DNA of 64,000 bases from Alphaproteobacteria bacterium (GTDB lineage: Bacteria; Pseudomonadota; Alphaproteobacteria; Micropepsales; Micropepsaceae). Below are positions 4,725 to 15,465 of the stretch, piece by piece. Made by a program: the position numbers and the translations under genes. Every line of letters begins with the position of its first letter. Within the stretch, counting starts at the first letter, position 1. The notes under the pieces are model-generated. The model worked only from the letters and a program-made list of their open reading frames with translations. It made no database searches and was not told the origin of the DNA. The DNA is taken from assembly GCA_947474565.1 (NCBI GenBank), contig CANJIS010000005.1:1-64000 (forward strand), given 5' to 3'.

Positions 4725-5399
4725 TCATCGCGCCCGTATCATATAGCCCGCGCCGCGGATCGTATGCAGCAGGGGCGTGTCGAAACCCTTGTCGATCTTG
4801 GCGCGCAGGCGCGAGATATGGACGTCGATCACATTGGTCTGGGGGTCGAAGTGATACTCCCACACGCTTTCCAGCAGCATGGTGCGGGTCACCACCTGGC
4901 CGGCATGGCGCATTAAGTATTCCAGCAGGCGGAATTCGCGCGGCTGAAGATCGATGGTCTGGTCGCCCCGCTTGGCGGCGCGCGTTAACAAATCCAGATG
5001 CAGATCGCCGACCGAAAGCTGGGTCTTCACCGTCACCGGCGAGCGGCGGCGCATCAGGGCATCCACACGCGCCAGCAATTCGACAAAGGCATACGGCTTG
5101 GTGAGATAATCGTCGCCGCCGGCCTTGAGGCCCTTCACCCGGTCATCCACTTCGGAGAGGGCGGAGAGAAAAAGCACCGGGATGGTGTTGCCGTGCTCGC
5201 GCATCTCGGCCACCACGCCCAACCCGTCCATCTTGGGCAACATGCGATCAATGATCGCGACATCGTAAGGACGCGACAGCGCCAGGGAGAGGCCCAGATC
5301 GCCATCCGAGGCATCGTCAACCACATGCCCCGACTCTTTCAGGCCTTGAACCAGATAACGCTGGGCTTCCAGATCGTCCTCAACAACGAGAATGCGCAT
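4725..5399 (-). CDS. OmpR/PhoB-family response regulator
   Basis: A 224-residue two-domain regulator. The receiver domain begins MRILVVEDD and has the phospho-acceptor Asp at 51 in IIDRMLPKMDG and the conserved KPY segment. The C-terminal winged helix carries LQPREFRLLEYLMRH and IDVHISRLRAKID, typical of DNA-binding OmpR regulators. An AGAGGA ribosome binding site precedes the start. It is the cognate partner of the kinase immediately downstream. A 120-base gap separates it from degP, so it may have its own promoter. The target genes are unknown; degP is a reasonable candidate. Confidence 0.95.
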   Translation of the reverse strand: MRILVVEDDLEAQRYLVQGLKESGHVVDDASDGDLGLSLALSRPYDVAIIDRMLPKMDGLGVVAEMREHGNTIPVLFLSALSEVDDRVKGLKAGGDDYLTKPYAFVELLARVDALMRRRSPVTVKTQLSVGDLHLDLLTRAAKRGDQTIDLQPREFRLLEYLMRHAGQVVTRTMLLESVWEYHFDPQTNVIDVHISRLRAKIDKGFDTPLLHTIRGAGYMIRAR

Positions 5400-7204: not shown

Positions 7205-7636
7205 TTACAGCGGGTCGGAAGGCGCCGCTTTGCGTGCCTTGCTTATCACAAAAATGGCGACCCCGCCCGCCACGATCAAGACCAAGAACGGCGCGGCCCA
7301 GAGAAAATAGGTGTCCGCTTCGACGGGCGGCCGCATCAAAATGTAATTGCCGTAGCGGGCCGTAAGGAACTCCTGGATCTGGCGGTCGGAGCGGCCTTCC
7401 ACCATTTGCTGGCGCACCAGCTGACGCAGTTCCTCCGCCAGCGGCGCGTGCGATTCATCGATGCTTTCGCCTTGGCAAACCAGACAACGCAACTGGCGCT
7501 GCAGATTGCGGGCGCGCGCCTCCATCGCTGGATCGGAAAAAGTGCCGGGCGCAGGCGCTGCCCGCGCCGGGATCGGCGCAATGGAAAAAAACGCGGGCGC
7601 GGCAAGCAGCAGCAGAAGAAAGAGGACGCGTTTCAT
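7205..7636 (-). CDS. ccmH: Cytochrome c maturation protein CcmH (CycL)
   Basis: A 143-residue membrane-anchored thiol-disulfide protein that reduces apocytochrome c before heme attachment. It has a signal sequence (about residues 1-26), the signature LRCLVC with redox cysteines 51 and 54, and a C-terminal membrane helix around residues 107-127. The ATG at 7636 overlaps the ccmF stop as ATGA, showing translational coupling; longer upstream starts lie inside ccmF. It is the short alphaproteobacterial form, without the fused CcmI-like TPR domain of E. coli CcmH. Confidence 0.95.
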   Translation of the reverse strand: MKRVLFLLLLLAAPAFFSIAPIPARAAPAPGTFSDPAMEARARNLQRQLRCLVCQGESIDESHAPLAEELRQLVRQQMVEGRSDRQIQEFLTARYGNYILMRPPVEADTYFLWAAPFLVLIVAGGVAIFVISKARKAAPSDPL

Positions 7637-9549
7637 TCGGCCGGCTGCGCAGCGGTGGCCGGCAGCGTGGCGCGCACGCGTAACCGCCCCCACAGGCTGA
7701 GCATGCCACCCAGACCCATCACCAATCCGCCCAGCCAGATGAAGGGCGCCAGCGGACTGACATAGGCGCGAATGGTCCAGCGGCCATCGCCGCGATTGTC
7801 GCCCAGCGCCAGATAAAGATCCTGAAAACCGGTGGTACGGATGGCGGTGACGGAGACATCCTGTCCGTCGGCCGGATAGATGCGCTGTTCCGGCGTCATT
7901 ACGCTCTTCACCTGGTCGCCGCTCATCAGCGCGATATGGGCGCGGCTGGCGCGATAATCAGAACCCTGGCGCTGGGTGACGCCGTCAAAGCGCAACGTAT
8001 AGGGACCGACATGCATCAACTCGCCGGGGCCAACAACCACCAGCGCTTCGCTGCGCCACAAGGTGGTGCCGGCAACACCCATCAGCGTCACGCCCAGACC
8101 GGCATGCGCCAGAGCAGCGGCGAATGCGCTGGCGCGGGCGCCCCTGCGCCTTAGCACATCAAGCAAGCTGGCGCCGATCAGCCAGCCCGCCATGGCGAAG
8201 GCCAGCGCGCCGGTCAGAAAACGCGGAGACGCGACAAGCAGCACCACCAGCGCCGCTATGACCGCAAGCCCGAGGGCCGGCGCCAATGCGCGCAGCACTT
8301 CTTTCAGGTTGCCACGGCGCCAGCCCAGCATCGGACCCAGCGGCACCAGCAAAAGCAGCGCGAAGAAAATCGGCGCGAAGGTCGCGACATAATAAGGCGG
8401 GCCGACGGAAATCTTGTCCCGGCCCATCGCATCCAACACCATCGGATAGAGCGTGCCGACAAACACCGAGGCGCAGGCCGCGACCAGGAAGACATTGTTG
8501 AGCAGCAGCATGGTCTCGCGGCTCACTGCCTCGAAGGCAGCGCCGCCCTGAAGCTTGGGGGCACGCCAGGCGAATAGCGCCAGCGCCCCGCCGATGGCGC
8601 AGAAGATCAACGCCAGAATATAGAGGCCGCGGGTAGGATCGGACGCAAAGGAATGCACCGATGTGGTCAGACCCGAACGCACCAGGAAGGTGCCGATCAG
8701 GCTCATGGAAAAACCGCCAATGGCCAGCAGCAGACTCCATGTGCGGAAGGCGCCGCTTTTTTCTGTCGCCAGCGCGGAATGCAGCAGCGCAGTCGCCACC
8801 AGCCACGGCATCAGCGAGGCATTTTCAACCGGATCCCAGAACCAGAAGCCGCCCCAGCCCAATTCGTAATAGGCCCACCAGCTTCCCAGGGCGATGCCGC
8901 AGGTCAGGAAAATCCACGACAACAGCATCAGCGGCCGCGCGGCGCGGGCCCAGCCTTCTTCGCCCACCATCAAGGCGGCAGCGGCATAAGAGAAAGACGC
9001 CGAAAGCCCGACATAGCCCGCGTAGAGCATGGGCGGATGCATCGCCAGGCCGGGATCCTGCAGCAGCGGATTGAGGCCCGCGCCTTCAAATGGCGCCGGG
9101 TCAATCCGCAAAAACGGATTGGACGTGAACAGGATGAAAAGGATGAAGGCCGCCGCCAGCATTCCCTGCACACCCAGCGCGGCGCTGGTCAGCCGCTCAC
9201 CGCCACGGCCCAGCATCGCCACCAGGCCGGAATAAAGCGACAGAACCAGCACCCATAAAAGCATCGAGCCTTCATGGTTTCCCCAGACGCCGCTGATTCT
9301 GTAGACCAGCGGCTTGAGGGTGTTGGAATTGCTGGCGACGCCGGAAATCGAAAAATCCGACGTCACGAAAGCATATGTCAGCGTTCCGAAAGCCAGCGCC
9401 ACAAACACCAGCATGCCCATGGTGGCGCCATGCGCGATGGCACGGGCGGTAGCCGCCTCGCTGCGCGCGCCGGTAAGCCCGGCGACTGCCATCACCAGCG
9501 ACAGGGCCAAGGCAAAGCAAAGCGCCAGTTGACCCAGCTCGCCGGTCAC
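7633..9549 (-). CDS. ccmF: Cytochrome c heme lyase subunit CcmF (CycK)
   Basis: A 638-residue polytopic membrane protein that accepts heme from CcmE and attaches it to apocytochrome c together with CcmH. The WWD signature is clear (WGGFWFWDPVENAS), and there are many membrane helices plus a large periplasmic segment near the C-terminus. The start is GTG at 9549, overlapping the ccmE stop by four bases. Length is normal. It lies in the order ccmE-ccmF-ccmH; ccmABCD and ccmG are not in this window. Confidence 0.97.
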   Translation of the reverse strand: MTGELGQLALCFALALSLVMAVAGLTGARSEAATARAIAHGATMGMLVFVALAFGTLTYAFVTSDFSISGVASNSNTLKPLVYRISGVWGNHEGSMLLWVLVLSLYSGLVAMLGRGGERLTSAALGVQGMLAAAFILFILFTSNPFLRIDPAPFEGAGLNPLLQDPGLAMHPPMLYAGYVGLSASFSYAAAALMVGEEGWARAARPLMLLSWIFLTCGIALGSWWAYYELGWGGFWFWDPVENASLMPWLVATALLHSALATEKSGAFRTWSLLLAIGGFSMSLIGTFLVRSGLTTSVHSFASDPTRGLYILALIFCAIGGALALFAWRAPKLQGGAAFEAVSRETMLLLNNVFLVAACASVFVGTLYPMVLDAMGRDKISVGPPYYVATFAPIFFALLLLVPLGPMLGWRRGNLKEVLRALAPALGLAVIAALVVLLVASPRFLTGALAFAMAGWLIGASLLDVLRRRGARASAFAAALAHAGLGVTLMGVAGTTLWRSEALVVVGPGELMHVGPYTLRFDGVTQRQGSDYRASRAHIALMSGDQVKSVMTPEQRIYPADGQDVSVTAIRTTGFQDLYLALGDNRGDGRWTIRAYVSPLAPFIWLGGLVMGLGGMLSLWGRLRVRATLPATAAQPAE

Positions 9550-9989
9550 AGGCCGCCTTCCTTCCAGCGGCCACTGCGCTTCAAGGCATCCACCACTTCG
9601 GGCGGCATATATTTCTCGTCATGCTTGGCCAGCACTTCGGTCGCGACAAAGGCCCCGCTGCCGTTGAGCGCGCCCAGCGCCACAATGCCCTGCCCTTCGC
9701 GGAACAACGCCGGTAGCACGCCATTATATTGAACCGGTACGACACCTTTTCCGTCGGTCACGCTGAAGGTGACATCCGCGCCGGCGCCATGATGCACGCT
9801 CTTGTCCACCACCAGCCCGCCCAGGCGGAAAGCGGTTCCGGGCTCGACCATTTTGGCAGTGACATCGCTGGGGCTGCGGAAATATTGGGTGTTCTGTCCC
9901 AGCTCGTAAATAATCGCGCCAGCCAGCACCACGCCGGCCGCAAGCAGGGCGACGGCGAATGCAAGGCGGCGGCGTTTTTTCGGCGTCAT
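9546..9989 (-). CDS. ccmE: Periplasmic heme chaperone CcmE (CycJ)
   Basis: A 147-residue membrane-anchored heme chaperone. It has one N-terminal helix (about residues 8-29), then an OB-fold domain, and the covalent heme-binding signature LAKHDEKYMPP with His123 and Tyr127 in the HxxxY arrangement. It follows the stop of a 116-residue gene without a gap (TGA then ATG) and overlaps ccmF by four bases, so all four genes are probably one transcript. It carries heme from CcmCD to CcmF. Confidence 0.97.
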   Translation of the reverse strand: MTPKKRRRLAFAVALLAAGVVLAGAIIYELGQNTQYFRSPSDVTAKMVEPGTAFRLGGLVVDKSVHHGAGADVTFSVTDGKGVVPVQYNGVLPALFREGQGIVALGALNGSGAFVATEVLAKHDEKYMPPEVVDALKRSGRWKEGGL

Positions 9990-10416: not shown

Positions 10417-10707
10417 TTACCAGCGGCGGCCGCCACGGCCCCAGCCGCCACCACGACCGCAGCCACCGCGGCCATAACCACCGCCAAAGCCGAAGTTCAG
10501 CCGGACAGACGGTCCGTAGTACGGGGCGCCGTAATAAGGCGACCCGTAATAGGGATACGGGGCGGGATAAGGCGGCGCGTAATAGACGGGCGGCGGAGGC
10601 GGCGGCCCATAGGCATAGGTGCTGGGCTGCGGCGGCGGCAGCTCATTGCCGTCCATGCAGGCATAGTAAGCGTCGCCATAAGCCGCCTGAACATCGGCGG
10701 CGGCCAT
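10417..10707 (-). CDS. Pro/Tyr/Gly-rich low-complexity protein, probably 5'-truncated
   Basis: The frame encodes YGDAYYACMDGNELPPPQP, then a proline/tyrosine-rich stretch with PYYG repeats, and a glycine/arginine-rich tail (FGFGGGYGRGG...RGGRRW). Proteins of this type in alphaproteobacteria are usually small exported envelope proteins with a signal peptide. Here no signal peptide can be found: the ATG at 10707 has no ribosome binding site, and the frame continues upstream to 10842 through sequence that reads better as a plus-strand PepSY tail. A terminator follows the stop. I infer a real gene that has lost its 5' end. Confidence 0.5.
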   Translation of the reverse strand: MAAADVQAAYGDAYYACMDGNELPPPQPSTYAYGPPPPPPVYYAPPYPAPYPYYGSPYYGAPYYGPSVRLNFGFGGGYGRGGCGRGGGWGRGGRRW

Positions 10708-10800
10708 TATGTGGTGAAAAGTTTCAACCGGCGCGGCCGCACCGTCTTCGTGGAAATCAACCCTTACACGGGAGCCTTTCTCGGCGAATTCCGCGTCTAA
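10694..10800 (+). pseudogene. Orphan C-terminal fragment of a PepSY-like domain
   Basis: On the plus strand the last 30 or so codons before a TAA at 10798 read GGGHYVVKSFNRRGRTVFVE followed by INPYTGAFLGEFRV. This matches the closing beta-hairpin of PepSY domains (xYxVxxxNRxGRxxxVxVDxxTGxxL). The frame is open further upstream, but there it is the Arg-rich shadow of the opposite-strand PYYG gene, with no signal peptide or start. A hairpin with six T residues follows on the plus strand. It looks like the 3' end of a once longer gene. Confidence 0.45.
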
Positions 10801-10859
10801 AGCTTGGGCGTAGAGTGGACGGTATGCCCCTCCCCGAACCACTCTAAGCTATCAAGGAA

Positions 10860-10900
10860 AGGCCCGCGCTTCTCCCGAGACGCGGGCCTTTCGCTTTTTT
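10860..10900 (+). terminator. Rho-independent terminator, possibly bidirectional
   Basis: AGGCCCGCG and CGCGGGCCT arms are followed by TTCGCTTTTTT on the plus strand, a good terminator for a plus-strand gene ending at 10800. On the minus strand the stem is followed by TTTCCTT, so it may also end the four-gene YkgJ operon that stops at 10960. Confidence 0.8.
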
Positions 10901-10959: not shown

Positions 10960-11538
10960 CTAACTGCTCACATCGTGGCCATCATGACGCATCACGTATG
11001 GCTTGGTGGGATGAGCGACCAATATCTTCAATATCTCTTCCAGCACCGTCTTCATCTCGGCGCGCGATTTCGCGGCGGCTTGCTGAAGCGGCGGAACGTT
11101 CAGCAACAAGCGCGCCGATTGCATGCCCGGACCGGCGGATAGCATCAGATAAAGCGCGATATTGTTGCGCAGGCTCTTGGCGACGAAATCCAGGAAGTCC
11201 GGCCGCCTGATTGTCTTGAGCGGATTGCCGACCAGATTCAGGGCGGCGCCCAGAGGCTGAAACTGCGGCAGCTCGTTGATCTCCAATATCGCCATGACGC
11301 CCGACCGGTCGGGGCGCCAGTCATCGGGAAAATCCGGCGAGCGCCGCCAGCCGCAGAAAAATGTGCGGCAAGGATCGGGACGGTTTTCATAGATATTGCA
11401 GCCGCCCTGCAGAGAATGAACGCATGGCGAACCGGGTTGCTTCTGTACTTCCGGCTTGTTGATAGCCGGCGCAATGCAGCATTCCTGGCATTCGCCGCAG
11501 GCGCGATCTGCGATCAGCGGGCCCTCGACCTGGCTCAT
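10960..11538 (-). CDS. YkgJ-type cysteine-cluster protein, fourth of four tandem paralogs
   Basis: The 192-residue protein has eight cysteines in a fixed pattern: CGECQECC, 17 residues, C, seven, C, nine, C, four, C, closing with FFCGWRR. This fits the CxxCxxCC family (YkgJ, PF03692), thought to bind zinc or iron. The second half is shared with its paralogs: WRPDRSG, GNPLKTIRRPDFLDF, LYLMLSAGPGMQSARL and a C-terminal GHDVSS. No signal peptide or membrane segment. Its ATG overlaps the previous stop as ATGA. Function of the family is unknown. Confidence 0.85.
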   Translation of the reverse strand: MSQVEGPLIADRACGECQECCIAPAINKPEVQKQPGSPCVHSLQGGCNIYENRPDPCRTFFCGWRRSPDFPDDWRPDRSGVMAILEINELPQFQPLGAALNLVGNPLKTIRRPDFLDFVAKSLRNNIALYLMLSAGPGMQSARLLLNVPPLQQAAAKSRAEMKTVLEEILKILVAHPTKPYVMRHDGHDVSS

Positions 11539-12119
11539 GTGCTGAAATCTTGGCCACTGTATTCCATCACATAGGGCTCTGGCGGCAGGGCCTGATGTGT
11601 CTTGAGCGATTGCTCCAGCACGGTTTTCACATCGCTGCGCGAGCGCGCGCCGGCCAGTGCCGGATTGAGCTGCAAGCGCGCCGATTTCATTCTTTCGCCT
11701 CCCGGCAGCATCAGATAGAGCGCAACCTTATTCCGGATATTGTGGAGGACAAAATCCAGAAAATCCGGCCGTCTTATGGTCTTCAGTGGATTTCCGGTGA
11801 GAAACAGGGATAGCGCCACCGGCCGGAACTGCGGCTGCTCGTTGGATTCACCGATGATCAGAATGCCGGAACGGTCAGGACGCCAATCGGCGGGCACGTC
11901 CGTCAGCCGCCGCCAGCCGCAAAAAAACACCCGGCAGACCTCCGGGCGATTTTCATAAACGCCGCAGCCGCCCTGAAGACTGTGGCGGCAGGCCGAGCCC
12001 GGCATCTTCTGGATGGACGGTTTGTCTATGGTGAGCGCGATGCAGCATTCCTGGCATTCGCCGCATGCGCGTGCCGGCACCATCGGCCCGGACGGCGGCG
12101 ATTCAGGTGCTGACGTCAT
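11535..12119 (-). CDS. YkgJ-type cysteine-cluster protein, third of four tandem paralogs
   Basis: A 194-residue paralog with CGECQECC near residue 20, the same spacing of the remaining four cysteines, and FFCGWRR. The shared second half includes WRPDRSG, GNPLKTIRRPDFLDF, LYLMLPGGERMKSARLQLN and a C-terminal GQDFST. The start at 12119 (MTSAPESPPSG) matches the paralogs' length and overlaps the preceding gene by 17 bases; a longer frame to 12191 would overlap it much more. Probably cytoplasmic and translated together with its neighbours. Confidence 0.85.
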   Translation of the reverse strand: MTSAPESPPSGPMVPARACGECQECCIALTIDKPSIQKMPGSACRHSLQGGCGVYENRPEVCRVFFCGWRRLTDVPADWRPDRSGILIIGESNEQPQFRPVALSLFLTGNPLKTIRRPDFLDFVLHNIRNKVALYLMLPGGERMKSARLQLNPALAGARSRSDVKTVLEQSLKTHQALPPEPYVMEYSGQDFST

Positions 12120-12702
12120 GGCCGCGATAATCCATGGCATGCGGGGTGGGTGGATGCGCCGGCAGCCGCTGCACCAGACCTTCCAGCACATCGCCCACTT
12201 CGGTATGGGAGCGGGCAGCAGCTTCCGTCATGAGCGGATTGTTGAGCGAGAGGCGCGGCGACTGCATGCCCTTGGGGCCCGGCAGAATCAAATAGAGCGC
12301 GACCTTGTTGCCGAGGTTGCGAACCACAAAATCGATGAACGCTGAATCTCTGACGGTAACAAAGGGATCGGCCAGCAGCGTCAGTGCCACCGCCAAGGGA
12401 CCGAATTGCGGATCGCTGTTGGCTTCCAGCACGGCGAAGATACCGGACGTATCGGGCCGCCAGTTTTCGGGAAAGGCTGCGGATCGGCGCCAGCCGCAAA
12501 AAAACGCACGGCATACCGGCGGGCGGCTTTCATAGATATCGCAACCGCCGCCCAGACTGTAACGGCACGGCGATGCGGCCAGCTTTTGAATCTCAGGCGT
12601 ATCGATGGAAAGCGTGACGCAGCAGACTTTGCATTCGCCGCATTCGCGTCCGGGCACCAGCCGCTGGGGAGTGTCCTGCATGACGTCAGCCCGGGCCATC
12701 AT
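12103..12702 (-). CDS. YkgJ-type cysteine-cluster protein, second of four tandem paralogs
   Basis: A 199-residue paralog with CGECKVCC, all eight cluster cysteines, and FFCGWRR. The C-terminal half is the most divergent of the four (LLADPFVTVRDSAFIDF replaces GNPLKTIRRPDFLDF), but LYLILPGPKGMQSPRLSLN and the terminal GHDVST are kept. The ATG at 12702 overlaps the first paralog's stop as ATGA; a second ATG is the next codon. The conservation of every cysteine argues that the copy is functional. Confidence 0.85.
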   Translation of the reverse strand: MMARADVMQDTPQRLVPGRECGECKVCCVTLSIDTPEIQKLAASPCRYSLGGGCDIYESRPPVCRAFFCGWRRSAAFPENWRPDTSGIFAVLEANSDPQFGPLAVALTLLADPFVTVRDSAFIDFVVRNLGNKVALYLILPGPKGMQSPRLSLNNPLMTEAAARSHTEVGDVLEGLVQRLPAHPPTPHAMDYRGHDVST

Positions 12703-13280
12703 GTGCTCGTGTCTTGGCCGCTATTTTCCATCTGATACGAAATGAAGGTGTGCCCCTGCAGCCGCTTCAGAATTTTCTCCATGGCCGTCCTGAGTTCGGC
12801 GCGCGACTGGGTGGCGGCCTCGACCACCTCGCTATTGTTGAGCGGCAGCCGGGCAGCTTGCTTCCCTTTCGGACCGGGTATGCCCAAGAATAACGCGACC
12901 TTGCTGCGGACATTGCGGGCGACGAAATCGATAAAGTCCGGCTGGCGGATGCTTTTGAGCGGATTGCCGACCAGCATGATGGAAATACCCATGGACTGAA
13001 ATGGCGGCGGCTGGCCGGCTTCCAACTCAAAGAACAGTCCCGACCGGTCCGGACGCCATGAGTCGGGGAACAGGTCCATGCGCCGCCAGCCGCAGTAATA
13101 CTCGCGGCAGACCGGCGGACGGCTCTCATAGATATCGCAGCCGCCGCACAGGCTGTGGCGGCAGGGCGAATTGGCCATTTTCTGGATTTCCGGCTTGTCG
13201 ATTGCCGTCACGATGCAGCACGCCTGGCATTCGCCGCATTCGCGGTTCGGGACCAGATCATCCTTGTGCCAAGCTTGCAT
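12699..13280 (-). CDS. YkgJ-type cysteine-cluster protein, first of four tandem paralogs
   Basis: A 193-residue paralog and the promoter-proximal gene of the array. It has CGECQACC (Cys15, 18, 21, 22), a ninth cysteine within RHSLCGGC, and YYCGWRR. The shared C-terminal half has GNPLKSIRQPDFIDF, LFLGIPGPKGKQAARLPLN and the terminal GQDTST. The start at 13280 (MQAWHKDD) is chosen because the frame further upstream is unrelated to the paralogs and runs into the divergent PBP gene; its ribosome binding site is weak. About 110 bases separate it from the divergent PBP start. Confidence 0.83.
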   Translation of the reverse strand: MQAWHKDDLVPNRECGECQACCIVTAIDKPEIQKMANSPCRHSLCGGCDIYESRPPVCREYYCGWRRMDLFPDSWRPDRSGLFFELEAGQPPPFQSMGISIMLVGNPLKSIRQPDFIDFVARNVRSKVALFLGIPGPKGKQAARLPLNNSEVVEAATQSRAELRTAMEKILKRLQGHTFISYQMENSGQDTST

Positions 13281-13392
13281 GAAACCAACCAACCCGTTCT
13301 GCGCTGTTCTATAACATCGGCACTTGTATATATTAAGTGCGCCCGCAGCCCGAGCCTTGAAACCGCCGCAAAATTCGGTGAGCAATCCCACG

Positions 13393-15465
13393 ATGCCGCC
13401 ACCCCCCGATAGCTTCGAGGATCGCCTCCGCCTCTGGGAGCGCCACGCCAGACGCTGGGCGCCGCTTTTTGCCATCATCGTCACGGCTTTCACGGTTCCG
13501 GCCGCGATCCTGTACCTGCTGCCCTCCACGCTGGGGCTGTTTGCGGCGCCGCCGGATCCGCATATCGACCTCTATGCGGTCAACCGCCCGCAGGGCTTTA
13601 CCTTCATGGATTTGAACGGCGAAGAAGTCGGTCATCGCGGCGCAGTGGTGGGCGAGCGGCTGAAGCTGGAAGCCATGCCCGCTTACTTGCCGGCCGCCTT
13701 CATCGCCATGGAAGACCGCCGCTTCTATACCCATGACGGCGTCGATCCGGTTGGGCTTGGCCGCGCCCTGGTGCAGGACCTGCGCGCCGGTCATGCCGTC
13801 GCCGGCGGCTCCACCATCAGCCAGCAGACCGCCAAGATCATTTACACCCAGCAGGAACGCACCGTTTCGCGCAAATTTACCGAGTTGATGGGCGCCGCCG
13901 GTCTGGAGAAAGCCCTCACCAAGAAACAGATCCTCGAGCTTTATCTCAACCGCATCTATCTGGGCTCGGCGGCTTATGGCGTGGACGGCGCGGCGCGCGT
14001 CTATTTCGGCATCTCGGCGCGCAACCTCACGTTGGCCCAGGCGGCGATGCTGGCGACGCTGACGCGGGCGCCGTCGGTCTTCTCGCCGCGCCGCGATCTG
14101 GCCCGCGCCCAGGCGCGCGCCGACACGGTGCTGGATGCCATGGTGGACACCGGCGCGATCACGCAAGCGCAGGCCAAGGCGGCCAAGGCCAGTCCCGCCA
14201 TTGTGGTGGACAATGCCAGCATCGATTCGCGCAATTTCTTTTTCGACACTGCCGCCGACCAGGCCAAAGATCTGGTGTCGCAGAATGGCGGCTCGCTCAA
14301 CACCGACCTGATCGTGCACACCACGCTGGAACCGGCGCTGCAGGAAGCTGCGCGCCAGTCGGCCCTGGATGTGATCAACAAATATTCCAAGCGCAACCGC
14401 GTCCATCAGGCCGCCGTGGTGATCATGAAGCCGGACGGCGCAGTATCAGCCATGATCGGCGGCGTGGATTACGATGTCTCTGTGTTCAACCGCGCCACCC
14501 AGGCGCGCCGCCAGCCCGGTTCTTCCTTCAAGCCTTTTGTCTATCTGGCGGCGCTGGAAGCGGGCATTTCACCCGGGGATCAGCGTGACGATGAGCCGGT
14601 GGACATTAACGGCTACCAGCCCACCAATTTCGGCAACAATGAATATGGCACGCTGACATTGGCGGATGCCCTGGCCCATTCGGTCAACACCATCACCGTC
14701 AACCTGGCCCAGGAAGTCGGCATCAAAAAAGTGATTGATGCCGCGCGCCGGCTGGGCATCACCGCACCGCTGACGCCCACGCCGTCTCTTGCACTGGGCA
14801 CCAGTGAAGTGACGCCACTGGAATTGACCGGCGCCTATGCCGCCTTCGCCAATGGCGGTTATCGCGTCAATCCGTATTTGATCACCGAAGTGAATCAACC
14901 CGATGGCAAGGTGCTGTATCAGCGCCAGGAGCCCAAACCGCAGCGGGTGATTGATGCCCAAGTGAACCGCGACATGCTGGCGATGATGTGGAATGTGGTT
15001 GCCACCGGCACCGGCGGCGGCGCCTCGCTGGCGCCACGCGAAGCGGCCGGCAAGACCGGCACCACCCAGAATTCCCAGGACGCTTGGTTCGTGGGCTTCA
15101 CCACCGATTATGTCGCCGGTGTTTGGGTCGGCAATGATGACAACAGCCCCACCCGCAATGTCACCGGCGGCACCCTGCCCGCGATGATTTGGAAGAGTTC
15201 CATGCGCGCCGCGGAAAAAGGCCTGAAGCTGAAGCCGCTGGAACGTTCGCCGCCGCAGGAAGCCAATGATCCGGGCTTCTTCGCCCAGATGTTTGGGTCA
15301 AACAGCGTCCAGGCCAGGGCGCCGCGTGATGATGAAGCGACCTTTGCGCGGGATGAGCGCCTTCCCGACCTGCCGCCGCCCGAACCGCGGCGCAGCCGCA
15401 GCGGCATCCTGGGCTGGCTGTTCGGCGGGGATGATGAACCGGAGCCGCCGCCCCGCGACCGTTAG
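13393..15465 (+). CDS. Bifunctional class A penicillin-binding protein (PBP1A family)
   Basis: The 690-residue protein polymerises glycan strands and cross-links peptidoglycan. After a membrane anchor (about 23-50) comes a glycosyltransferase domain with the catalytic Glu107 in MEDRRFYTHDGVDP and GGSTISQQTAK. The transpeptidase domain has SSFK (Ser377, Lys380), SVN (430-432) and KTGTTQ (554-559). The C-terminus is charged and proline-rich. The start at 13393 (MPPPPDSFED) precedes the cytoplasmic tail; a GTG at 13378 is possible. All catalytic motifs are intact. It is transcribed divergently from the YkgJ array. Confidence 0.93.
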   Translation: MPPPPDSFEDRLRLWERHARRWAPLFAIIVTAFTVPAAILYLLPSTLGLFAAPPDPHIDLYAVNRPQGFTFMDLNGEEVGHRGAVVGERLKLEAMPAYLPAAFIAMEDRRFYTHDGVDPVGLGRALVQDLRAGHAVAGGSTISQQTAKIIYTQQERTVSRKFTELMGAAGLEKALTKKQILELYLNRIYLGSAAYGVDGAARVYFGISARNLTLAQAAMLATLTRAPSVFSPRRDLARAQARADTVLDAMVDTGAITQAQAKAAKASPAIVVDNASIDSRNFFFDTAADQAKDLVSQNGGSLNTDLIVHTTLEPALQEAARQSALDVINKYSKRNRVHQAAVVIMKPDGAVSAMIGGVDYDVSVFNRATQARRQPGSSFKPFVYLAALEAGISPGDQRDDEPVDINGYQPTNFGNNEYGTLTLADALAHSVNTITVNLAQEVGIKKVIDAARRLGITAPLTPTPSLALGTSEVTPLELTGAYAAFANGGYRVNPYLITEVNQPDGKVLYQRQEPKPQRVIDAQVNRDMLAMMWNVVATGTGGGASLAPREAAGKTGTTQNSQDAWFVGFTTDYVAGVWVGNDDNSPTRNVTGGTLPAMIWKSSMRAAEKGLKLKPLERSPPQEANDPGFFAQMFGSNSVQARAPRDDEATFARDERLPDLPPPEPRRSRSGILGWLFGGDDEPEPPPRDR

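Follow-up and report, generated by a model that had tools for sequence, protein, structure and literature searches.

We analyzed a window of 64,000 nucleotides, positions 1 to 64,000 of contig CANJIS010000005.1 (GenBank assembly GCA_947474565.1), from an alphaproteobacterium of the family Micropepsaceae. At positions 10960 to 13280 the window carries an array of four overlapping genes, designated A to D, each encoding a protein of about 190 amino acids with eight cysteines. The array probably derives from an accessory gene of a slot within a gene transfer agent (GTA) cluster, a gene that was kept by selection after the GTA was lost and was amplified fourfold. The window itself gives no view of the GTA connection, since its genome lacks the GTA. 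This connection is new, as are the survival and amplification of a GTA passenger. The window's genome probably belongs to the GTDB genus Rhizomicrobium, referred to below as the genus. Genomes and loci that need to be told apart are designated with G and L numbers.

The array is an old serial duplication

Open reading frames of 193, 199, 194, and 192 codons follow one another on the minus strand with overlaps of 4, 17, and 4 bases. The alignment of the four products retains all eight cysteines, with spacings of 17, 7, 9, and 4, and the motifs CGECxxCC, (F/Y)(F/Y)CGWRR, WRPD, and a C-terminal G(Q/H)DxS(S/T). An earlier note on this DNA, made from the sequence alone, had described four consecutive coupled genes that share cysteines, spacings, and motifs, and this description held in full.

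12699..13280, minus strand: gene A, first in the array, 193-amino-acid eight-cysteine protein
12103..12702, minus strand: gene B, 199-amino-acid copy
11535..12119, minus strand: gene C, 194-amino-acid copy, ATG at 12119
10960..11538, minus strand: gene D, last in the array, 192-amino-acid copy
12699..12702, minus strand: A/B junction, ATGA overlap (4 bases) within AGCACATGA
12103..12119, minus strand: B/C junction, 17-base overlap, start of C within the codons of the C-terminal HDVST of B
11535..11538, minus strand: C/D junction, ATGA overlap (4 bases) within AGCACATGA
10861..10888: terminator-like element 3' of gene D, a G+C-rich inverted repeat with a T-run after it on the plus strand, read by eye

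Part of the terminator-like repeat was recovered by a pattern scan at 10882 to 10894. Proteins B, C, and D are 52%, 52%, and 53% identical to A in the protein alignment, and the cysteine half is gapless among the four. A whole-genome search with a four-row profile, which was built from A to D themselves, put their similarity far above the level of chance (E values of 1.6e-109 to 1.6e-107). The window's genome (2.18 Mb, 39 contigs, 99.84% complete) contains nine family matches at E ≤ 0.01, namely A to D, one full-length relative on the same contig 58 kb from the array (C5:71384-71938), and four weaker matches.

The four genes form one clade in a 71-member tree (support 100/87, from a bootstrap not fully settled at 0.988). 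They do so again (99/88) in a second tree of 87 rows, in which 39 new rows with scores above 100 bits took the place of 23 distant ones among the 71. The branching, A, then B, then C with D, is the gene order, with A first of the four in both trees. Nei-Gojobori estimates among the four range from 1.06 to 1.54 for synonymous divergence (dS) and from 0.31 to 0.42 for nonsynonymous divergence (dN). The duplications are old because synonymous sites are near saturation, and the proteins are kept by purifying selection because dN is well below dS (dN/dS of about 0.2 to 0.4, all four frames intact). The array is thus an old serial duplication under purifying selection. The protein tree that the earlier note had called for, of the four against their relatives, supports a single clade, and its proposal of a coupled CxxCxxCC-type four-gene set is confirmed as one kept by purifying selection. 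The recent local duplication that it had set as the alternative is excluded by the near-saturated synonymous sites.

Several other origins were considered. The G+C content of the array (60 to 61%) lies inside the range of its flanks (60 to 65%), which disfavors horizontal import. An assembly artifact arising from near-identical repeats is excluded, because the copies share 60 to 65% of their nucleotides with no identical run longer than 26 bases. No stretch of unusually high identity indicative of gene conversion was found among the copies. A to D had no PADLOC match that would indicate a defense system, and a search for an RNA element gave one tRNA as the only Rfam match in the window. A promoter consensus scan near the array returned 0 sites with 0.9 expected and was therefore uninformative.

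Relatives of the array occupy a slot in GTA clusters

The array clade, which also takes in members from G009 and G100, is sister (95/81) to a clade of five, every one of them embedded in a GTA cluster. Proteins of the GTA clusters match portal, head protease, and major head protein models, as well as Terminase_6, Phage_tail_2, GTA-gp10, tape measure, DUF2460, phiJL001_Gp84-type hub, and NlpC/P60 models. A portal gene is present in 40 of 96 Micropepsaceae genomes, 32 of these in the genus. The eight-cysteine gene lies between the portal gene and g3.5 in nine genus genomes (G016, G012, G030, G017, G008, G007, G076, G032, and G019). In G012 this is the case on two contigs, in G017 two family genes are present, and in G016 one extra gene separates the portal gene from the family gene.

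The same arrangement was found in IMG/VR, which is selected for virus-like contigs. Relatives occur at 37 distinct IMG/VR loci, 28 of which carry GTA genes (about 22 are distinct, since L169/L170, L178/L179/L180, L196/L197, L199/L201, and L177/L202 are near-identical). Wherever a portal gene was seen, the family gene lies between it and g3.5 (27 of 27 loci), and L175, L195, L196, and L197 have a tandem pair in the slot.

The interval is nearly empty in L123, L138, L131, and L119, with 16 to 143 bp between the matches on either side. Its other occupants include a DUF559 protein, a PAS_5-like protein (just under the cut-off, on the other strand), and proteins that match no Pfam model. In G007 and G019 the family gene has as neighbors a DUF4258 gene and a helix-turn-helix gene (below the cut-off). 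Gene content suggests that the portal-g3.5 interval is a variable accessory slot in which an eight-cysteine protein of about 190 amino acids is one common occupant. The DUF4258 and helix-turn-helix genes, which lie between the family gene and g3.5 (L122:4554-5374 in G007 and L134:3924-4745 in G019), resemble a toxin-antitoxin pair by reading.

The array's relatives sit in clusters like those of RcGTA-type GTAs, whereas the window's genome has no GTA. A likely counterpart of g3.5 is Rcc01685, which the available part of PMC7296036 describes as a predicted long helix in the RcGTA head locus with no assigned function. No eight-cysteine gene is mentioned in the available parts of descriptions of RcGTA. 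In open-licence PubMed Central, no paper was found that contains gene transfer agent together with YkgJ, cysteine cluster protein, or zinc-/iron-chelating, and none that contains both gene transfer agent and Micropepsaceae. Gene transfer agent and Rhizomicrobium co-occur there in PMC11475020 and PMC10084755, each term once and without connection to the other.

GTA clusters and the array share a chromosomal site

The array and the GTA clusters of relatives lie beside the same penicillin-binding protein (PBP) gene. The neighboring features in the window are as follows.

13324..15465, plus strand: bifunctional PBP gene, divergent right-hand neighbor of the array, Pfam PF00912 (transglycosylase) and PF00905 (transpeptidase)
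13393, plus strand: ATG, alternative in-frame start of the PBP gene
10702..10797, plus strand: C-terminal remnant of small gene c12, about 32 codons, 78% identical
10417..10842, minus strand: open frame with weak similarity, in its middle and end, to the C-terminal region of flank gene c8 (low-complexity sequence, best E 2.5e-6)
7633..9989, minus strand: ccmF- and ccmE-type genes, left synteny anchor, named from reading of the sequence

In relatives the PBP gene is the landmark beside the GTA cluster, c12 is the left border of the site, and c8 and c12 flank a two-component system on either side. The ccmF/ccmE anchor is common to GTA-positive and GTA-less relatives. The order in GTA-less relatives is ccmF, ccmE, small genes, the two-component pair, c11, c12, the family gene, and PBP. 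In G016 it is c8, c4, the two-component pair, c11, c12, about 11 kb, a phage-like cluster that begins with g15, ends with terminase, and encloses the family gene, and PBP. G030 has the same PBP gene and the same flank as far as c12, separated by the stretch from terminase to g13 and by the family gene; neither g14 nor g15 was found at this locus. Loci with and without the GTA have the same chromosomal flanks. The g13-type hub gene of G030 lies in a 672-codon open frame (L081:661-2679), which, with g14 and g15 not found, points to a possible change in the tail portion of its GTA.

G070, which belongs to another genus, has a terminase-portal-protease-capsid cluster beside the same PBP gene without the family gene. 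The presence of a GTA at the PBP site therefore seems older than the insertion of the family gene. The left flank of the window's array is shortened as well, with no match of c4, c10, or c11 at the site. The c12 remnant and the c8-like frame are likely a deletion scar, as if one deletion had spanned c8 to c12.

The gene has probably remained after repeated GTA loss

Whole-genome searches found no portal, capsid, or terminase gene in the window's genome. As positive controls, the portal was matched in the 40 of 96 genomes noted above, and capsid and terminase were matched in four of seven genomes; searches for the latter two returned nothing in G000, G009, and G101 and matches in all four GTA-positive genomes beside them. 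A family gene at the PBP site without a portal gene was found in the window's genome and in G105, G001, G100, G081, G094, G018, G107, G015, G035, G101, G103, and G009. When 17 loci, including all 13 portal-less ones, were compared with 14 GTA proteins at E ≤ 0.5, clear matches were restricted to the two contigs of G012 and a piece of g3.5 in G103. The window's locus contained no GTA remnant, its only two matches being at E values of 0.31 and 0.42. One G012 locus (L087:1342-2636) holds a decaying GTA, with the protease match in two pieces, a 71-residue stretch from the first part of the capsid protein, and flank gene c11 next to it.

GTA losses that left the gene behind number seven in the best tree (bootstrap median 7, range 4 to 9), counted without L203, L204, and L205, which are IMG/VR rows with no GTA gene. 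We estimate that the GTA was lost with the gene retained about six times, rather than seven, because the two copies of G103 were counted separately.

Proposed history and role of the array

These results suggest that in the genus a GTA cluster lay beside the PBP gene and that its portal-g3.5 slot took up an eight-cysteine gene, sometimes coupled to g3.5. The GTA would then have been lost several times while the passenger gene stayed at the site. Because the passenger stayed after several losses, it would serve a role that is under selection and independent of the GTA. In the lineage of the window, the GTA would have been lost and the passenger copied serially (A, then B, then C/D) to give four coupled genes. 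Anatomy, synteny, the tree, the age of the copies, purifying selection, and the lack of terminase, portal, and capsid genes are the observed part of this explanation.

Each of the proteins likely has an Fe-S or other metal site. By analogy with FliB, the CxxCxxCC half may bind a [4Fe-4S] cluster or another metal. The proteins might act on host targets as small Fe-S-dependent enzymes or as redox or metal proteins, and the four copies could be isoforms of one activity made from one mRNA. Given that the gene persists in genomes that lack the GTA, we tentatively prefer a host-directed enzyme or redox protein over a component of the GTA. In a more ambitious form, which we offer tentatively and at somewhat less than even chances, the slot gene would be an Fe-S enzyme of a new class whose host function is important enough for it to outlive repeated GTA loss and to be amplified fourfold, so that the cell would have re-domesticated the passenger of a domesticated phage.

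Several points weigh against a GTA origin followed by retention and amplification. The family gene was seen in the slot in only 9 of the 32 portal-bearing genus genomes, and many family members lie at unrelated places, so that the GTA is one habitat among several. Neither L061, which falls inside the array clade, nor L095, the next nearest to that clade outside the GTA sister group, is at the PBP site. The share of IMG/VR loci with GTA genes (28 of 37) overstates GTA frequency, given how that database is selected; the position of the gene within the clusters is unbiased. The count of losses used the gene tree in place of a species tree and assumes that a lost GTA never returns. The proposed chemistry gained no direct support from the PDB, in which no relative was found by sequence and no significant one by fold.

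Relation to known protein families and alternative explanations

The earlier note had called the four proteins YkgJ-type members of PF03692, the 'putative zinc- or iron-chelating domain'. This was correct in that there is distant kinship and incorrect as to family membership. The Pfam scores of the four (10.5, 13.1, 15.8, and 16.1 bits) all fall short of the curated gathering cut-off of 23, and no NCBIfam family matched A to D at E ≤ 10; gene C was entered three bases short of its start in both searches. Among 56 aligned family members, 27 match PF03692 at E ≤ 1 (best 0.00095). A profile-profile comparison (hhalign) with PF03692-type proteins, represented by 16 of 27 PF03692-matching proteins from the genus, aligned the cysteine halves over 59 columns (probability 93.1, E 3.1e-7). 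A to D share with PF03692 the CxxCxxCC start and a later C-x-IY-x-RP-x-x-CR pattern; unlike its members, they score below the cut-off and their C-terminal half is unaligned. A to D thus appear from these comparisons to be related to PF03692 distantly and through the cysteine half only. The window's genome has one true PF03692 gene, away from the array.

The N-terminal 75 or so residues also match phrog_9155, a phage family with no assigned function, at E values of 4.5e-13 to 3.7e-15, although the alignment is restricted to the cysteine half. Gene B matches 39 phage records at E ≤ 0.01, of which 37 are named Synechococcus phage or cyanophage. Two IMG/VR contigs of 48 and 79 kb (L184 and L185) carry two short cysteine-half relatives 3 kb apart, at 5036-5383 and 8001-8342, and no GTA gene was found on them.

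Across the 56 members, 13 columns are invariant, eight of them cysteines, and all 13 are kept in A to D. Eight invariant cysteines in a protein of 190 amino acids, and the presence of four coupled copies and five further members in a genome of 2.18 Mb, would fit a metal buffer or Fe-S carrier, with amplification giving a species of small genome more of a small metal-binding protein. However, the non-cysteine half is well structured and has W-R-P-D, S, and N residues that are invariant or almost so, which exceeds the needs of a buffer. Selection for dose alone also does not require the divergence of the copies to about 52% identity, and we consider this explanation doubtful.

A FliB-like protein methylase is rather unlikely. 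Such a [4Fe-4S] enzyme would methylate lysines on a protein that self-assembles, at first one from the head or tail of the GTA. According to the available part of PMC8598068, the cysteine-rich N-terminus of the flagellin lysine methylase FliB has eight conserved cysteines, as A to D do, and is compared there to PF03692. Its CX4CX3CC motif holds a [4Fe-4S] cluster, as determined by mutation and spectroscopy, and the cluster is required for lysine methylation (PMC8598068). The location of the family gene next to portal and capsid genes in GTA clusters is also in favor of such an enzyme. However, A to D are about 190 amino acids long, compared with 373 positions in the FliB model (NF038110), that model is among the NCBIfam families that gave no match, and the gene outlasts the GTA. 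NF038110 had no match in the window's genome, and 14 named control genomes were silent; it matched 1 of 96 class genomes. This sole match is a FliB-type methylase gene near a flagellar-looking gene in the alphaproteobacterium G127 (L235:706-1917).

The earlier note had asked whether the four-gene array is conserved in related genomes, which was not the case. Family genes are present in 54 of the 96 Micropepsaceae genomes at E ≤ 1e-10; the four-gene array was found in the window's genome only, although many of the 96 assemblies are in hundreds of contigs, in which arrays could be missed. G017 and G103 have two-gene pairs, and the two-gene tandem consists of two orthologous sets in the GTA contigs L175, L195, and L196/L197 and in G103. 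A second eight-cysteine subfamily forms coupled pairs with a 4-base overlap in five congeners (L110:8071-9248, L111, L112, L113, and L114); these pairs adjoin acyltransferase-like genes and, in some, ribonucleotide reductase-like genes. In a search for relatives in other classes, 14 of 289 genomes had a match at E ≤ 1e-12, but four of the 14 belong to the genus itself. No GTA head gene was found within 1.5 kb on either side of the matches in the remaining ones. The GTA link was seen only in the genus and in contigs of IMG/VR, for which no organism is given.

The conserved C-terminus, for which the earlier note suggested the role of a docking tail outside the family core, is a real motif, but not a docking tail peculiar to the array. 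G(N/Q/H)D occurs in 33 of 43 non-array main-clade rows, which are mostly single genes, though in none of the 24 distant rows. In the structural model of A (pLDDT 92.7, pTM 0.87, block means mostly above 90 in the non-cysteine half), the motif has a mean pLDDT of 92 to 96, and residues 190 and 192 are assigned to a strand or bridge. The motif looks like part of the fold because it is well packed in this model. Part of its conservation may reflect translational coupling, because the S-T-stop codons double as the start of the next gene at AGCACATGA. The same nine bases that form the A/B and C/D junctions end the family gene in G030 and G017, where S-T-stop overlaps the ATG of g3.5.

It is improbable that the four coupled products form one fixed complex, the hetero-oligomer suggested in the earlier note; nothing beyond gene coupling speaks for it. 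ATGA coupling at two of the three junctions, the coupled pairs of the second subfamily in five congeners, and, as the best support, the conserved two-gene tandem in GTA clusters and in G103 are consistent with such a complex. However, the four-gene set occurs in 1 of 96 genomes, and most members are single genes that must work alone. No copy has lost an invariant residue, so that there is no sign of a split between active and structural subunits, and the C-terminus proposed for docking packs into the modeled fold of A.

A recent tandem duplication under neutral drift, whose copies share no function, would fit the lack of the array in the other 95 Micropepsaceae genomes and the single clade of the four genes (100/87), yet it is highly improbable given synonymous sites near saturation, dN/dS of about 0.2 to 0.4, and the intact state of all four frames and all invariant residues.

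In Foldseek searches of the PDB the best match to the model of A had an E value of 0.44, and the sole fold matches at E ≤ 0.001 were four viral proteins of no named function. The lack of a PDB fold match does not prove a new fold. VIA-align rows for this model include tRNA-splicing endonucleases, RecU, and Hjc at Z scores of 2.1 to 3.3, among unrelated folds. A second model, of a distant member (pLDDT 85.0), gave 38 rows that include a Cas4 chain and Rai1, each at E 7.5, and 8 VIA-align rows that include Rai1 at Z 2.1. These lists could hint at a nuclease of the PD-(D/E)XK kind, stapled by cysteines and once active in the packaging of GTA DNA. They include several chains of that general fold among the best rows for the first model as well as the Cas4 chain and Rai1, itself of the PD-(D/E)XK fold. 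All values are at noise level, however, with unrelated folds among them, no conserved E-x-K type motif was seen by eye in the alignment, and a nuclease is very unlikely.

Implications

The proteins of this family appear, from sequences and predicted structures, to be well modeled and to have a clear metal-binding signature, and no solved relative was found. If the explanation proposed here is correct, then a fixed accessory slot in the GTA head operon would mean that GTAs carry cargo as prophages do, the occupant of the slot varying among species but being, in many of them, this one eight-cysteine gene. The repeated survival of this gene after GTA loss would provide a natural series for probing the function of such cargo.

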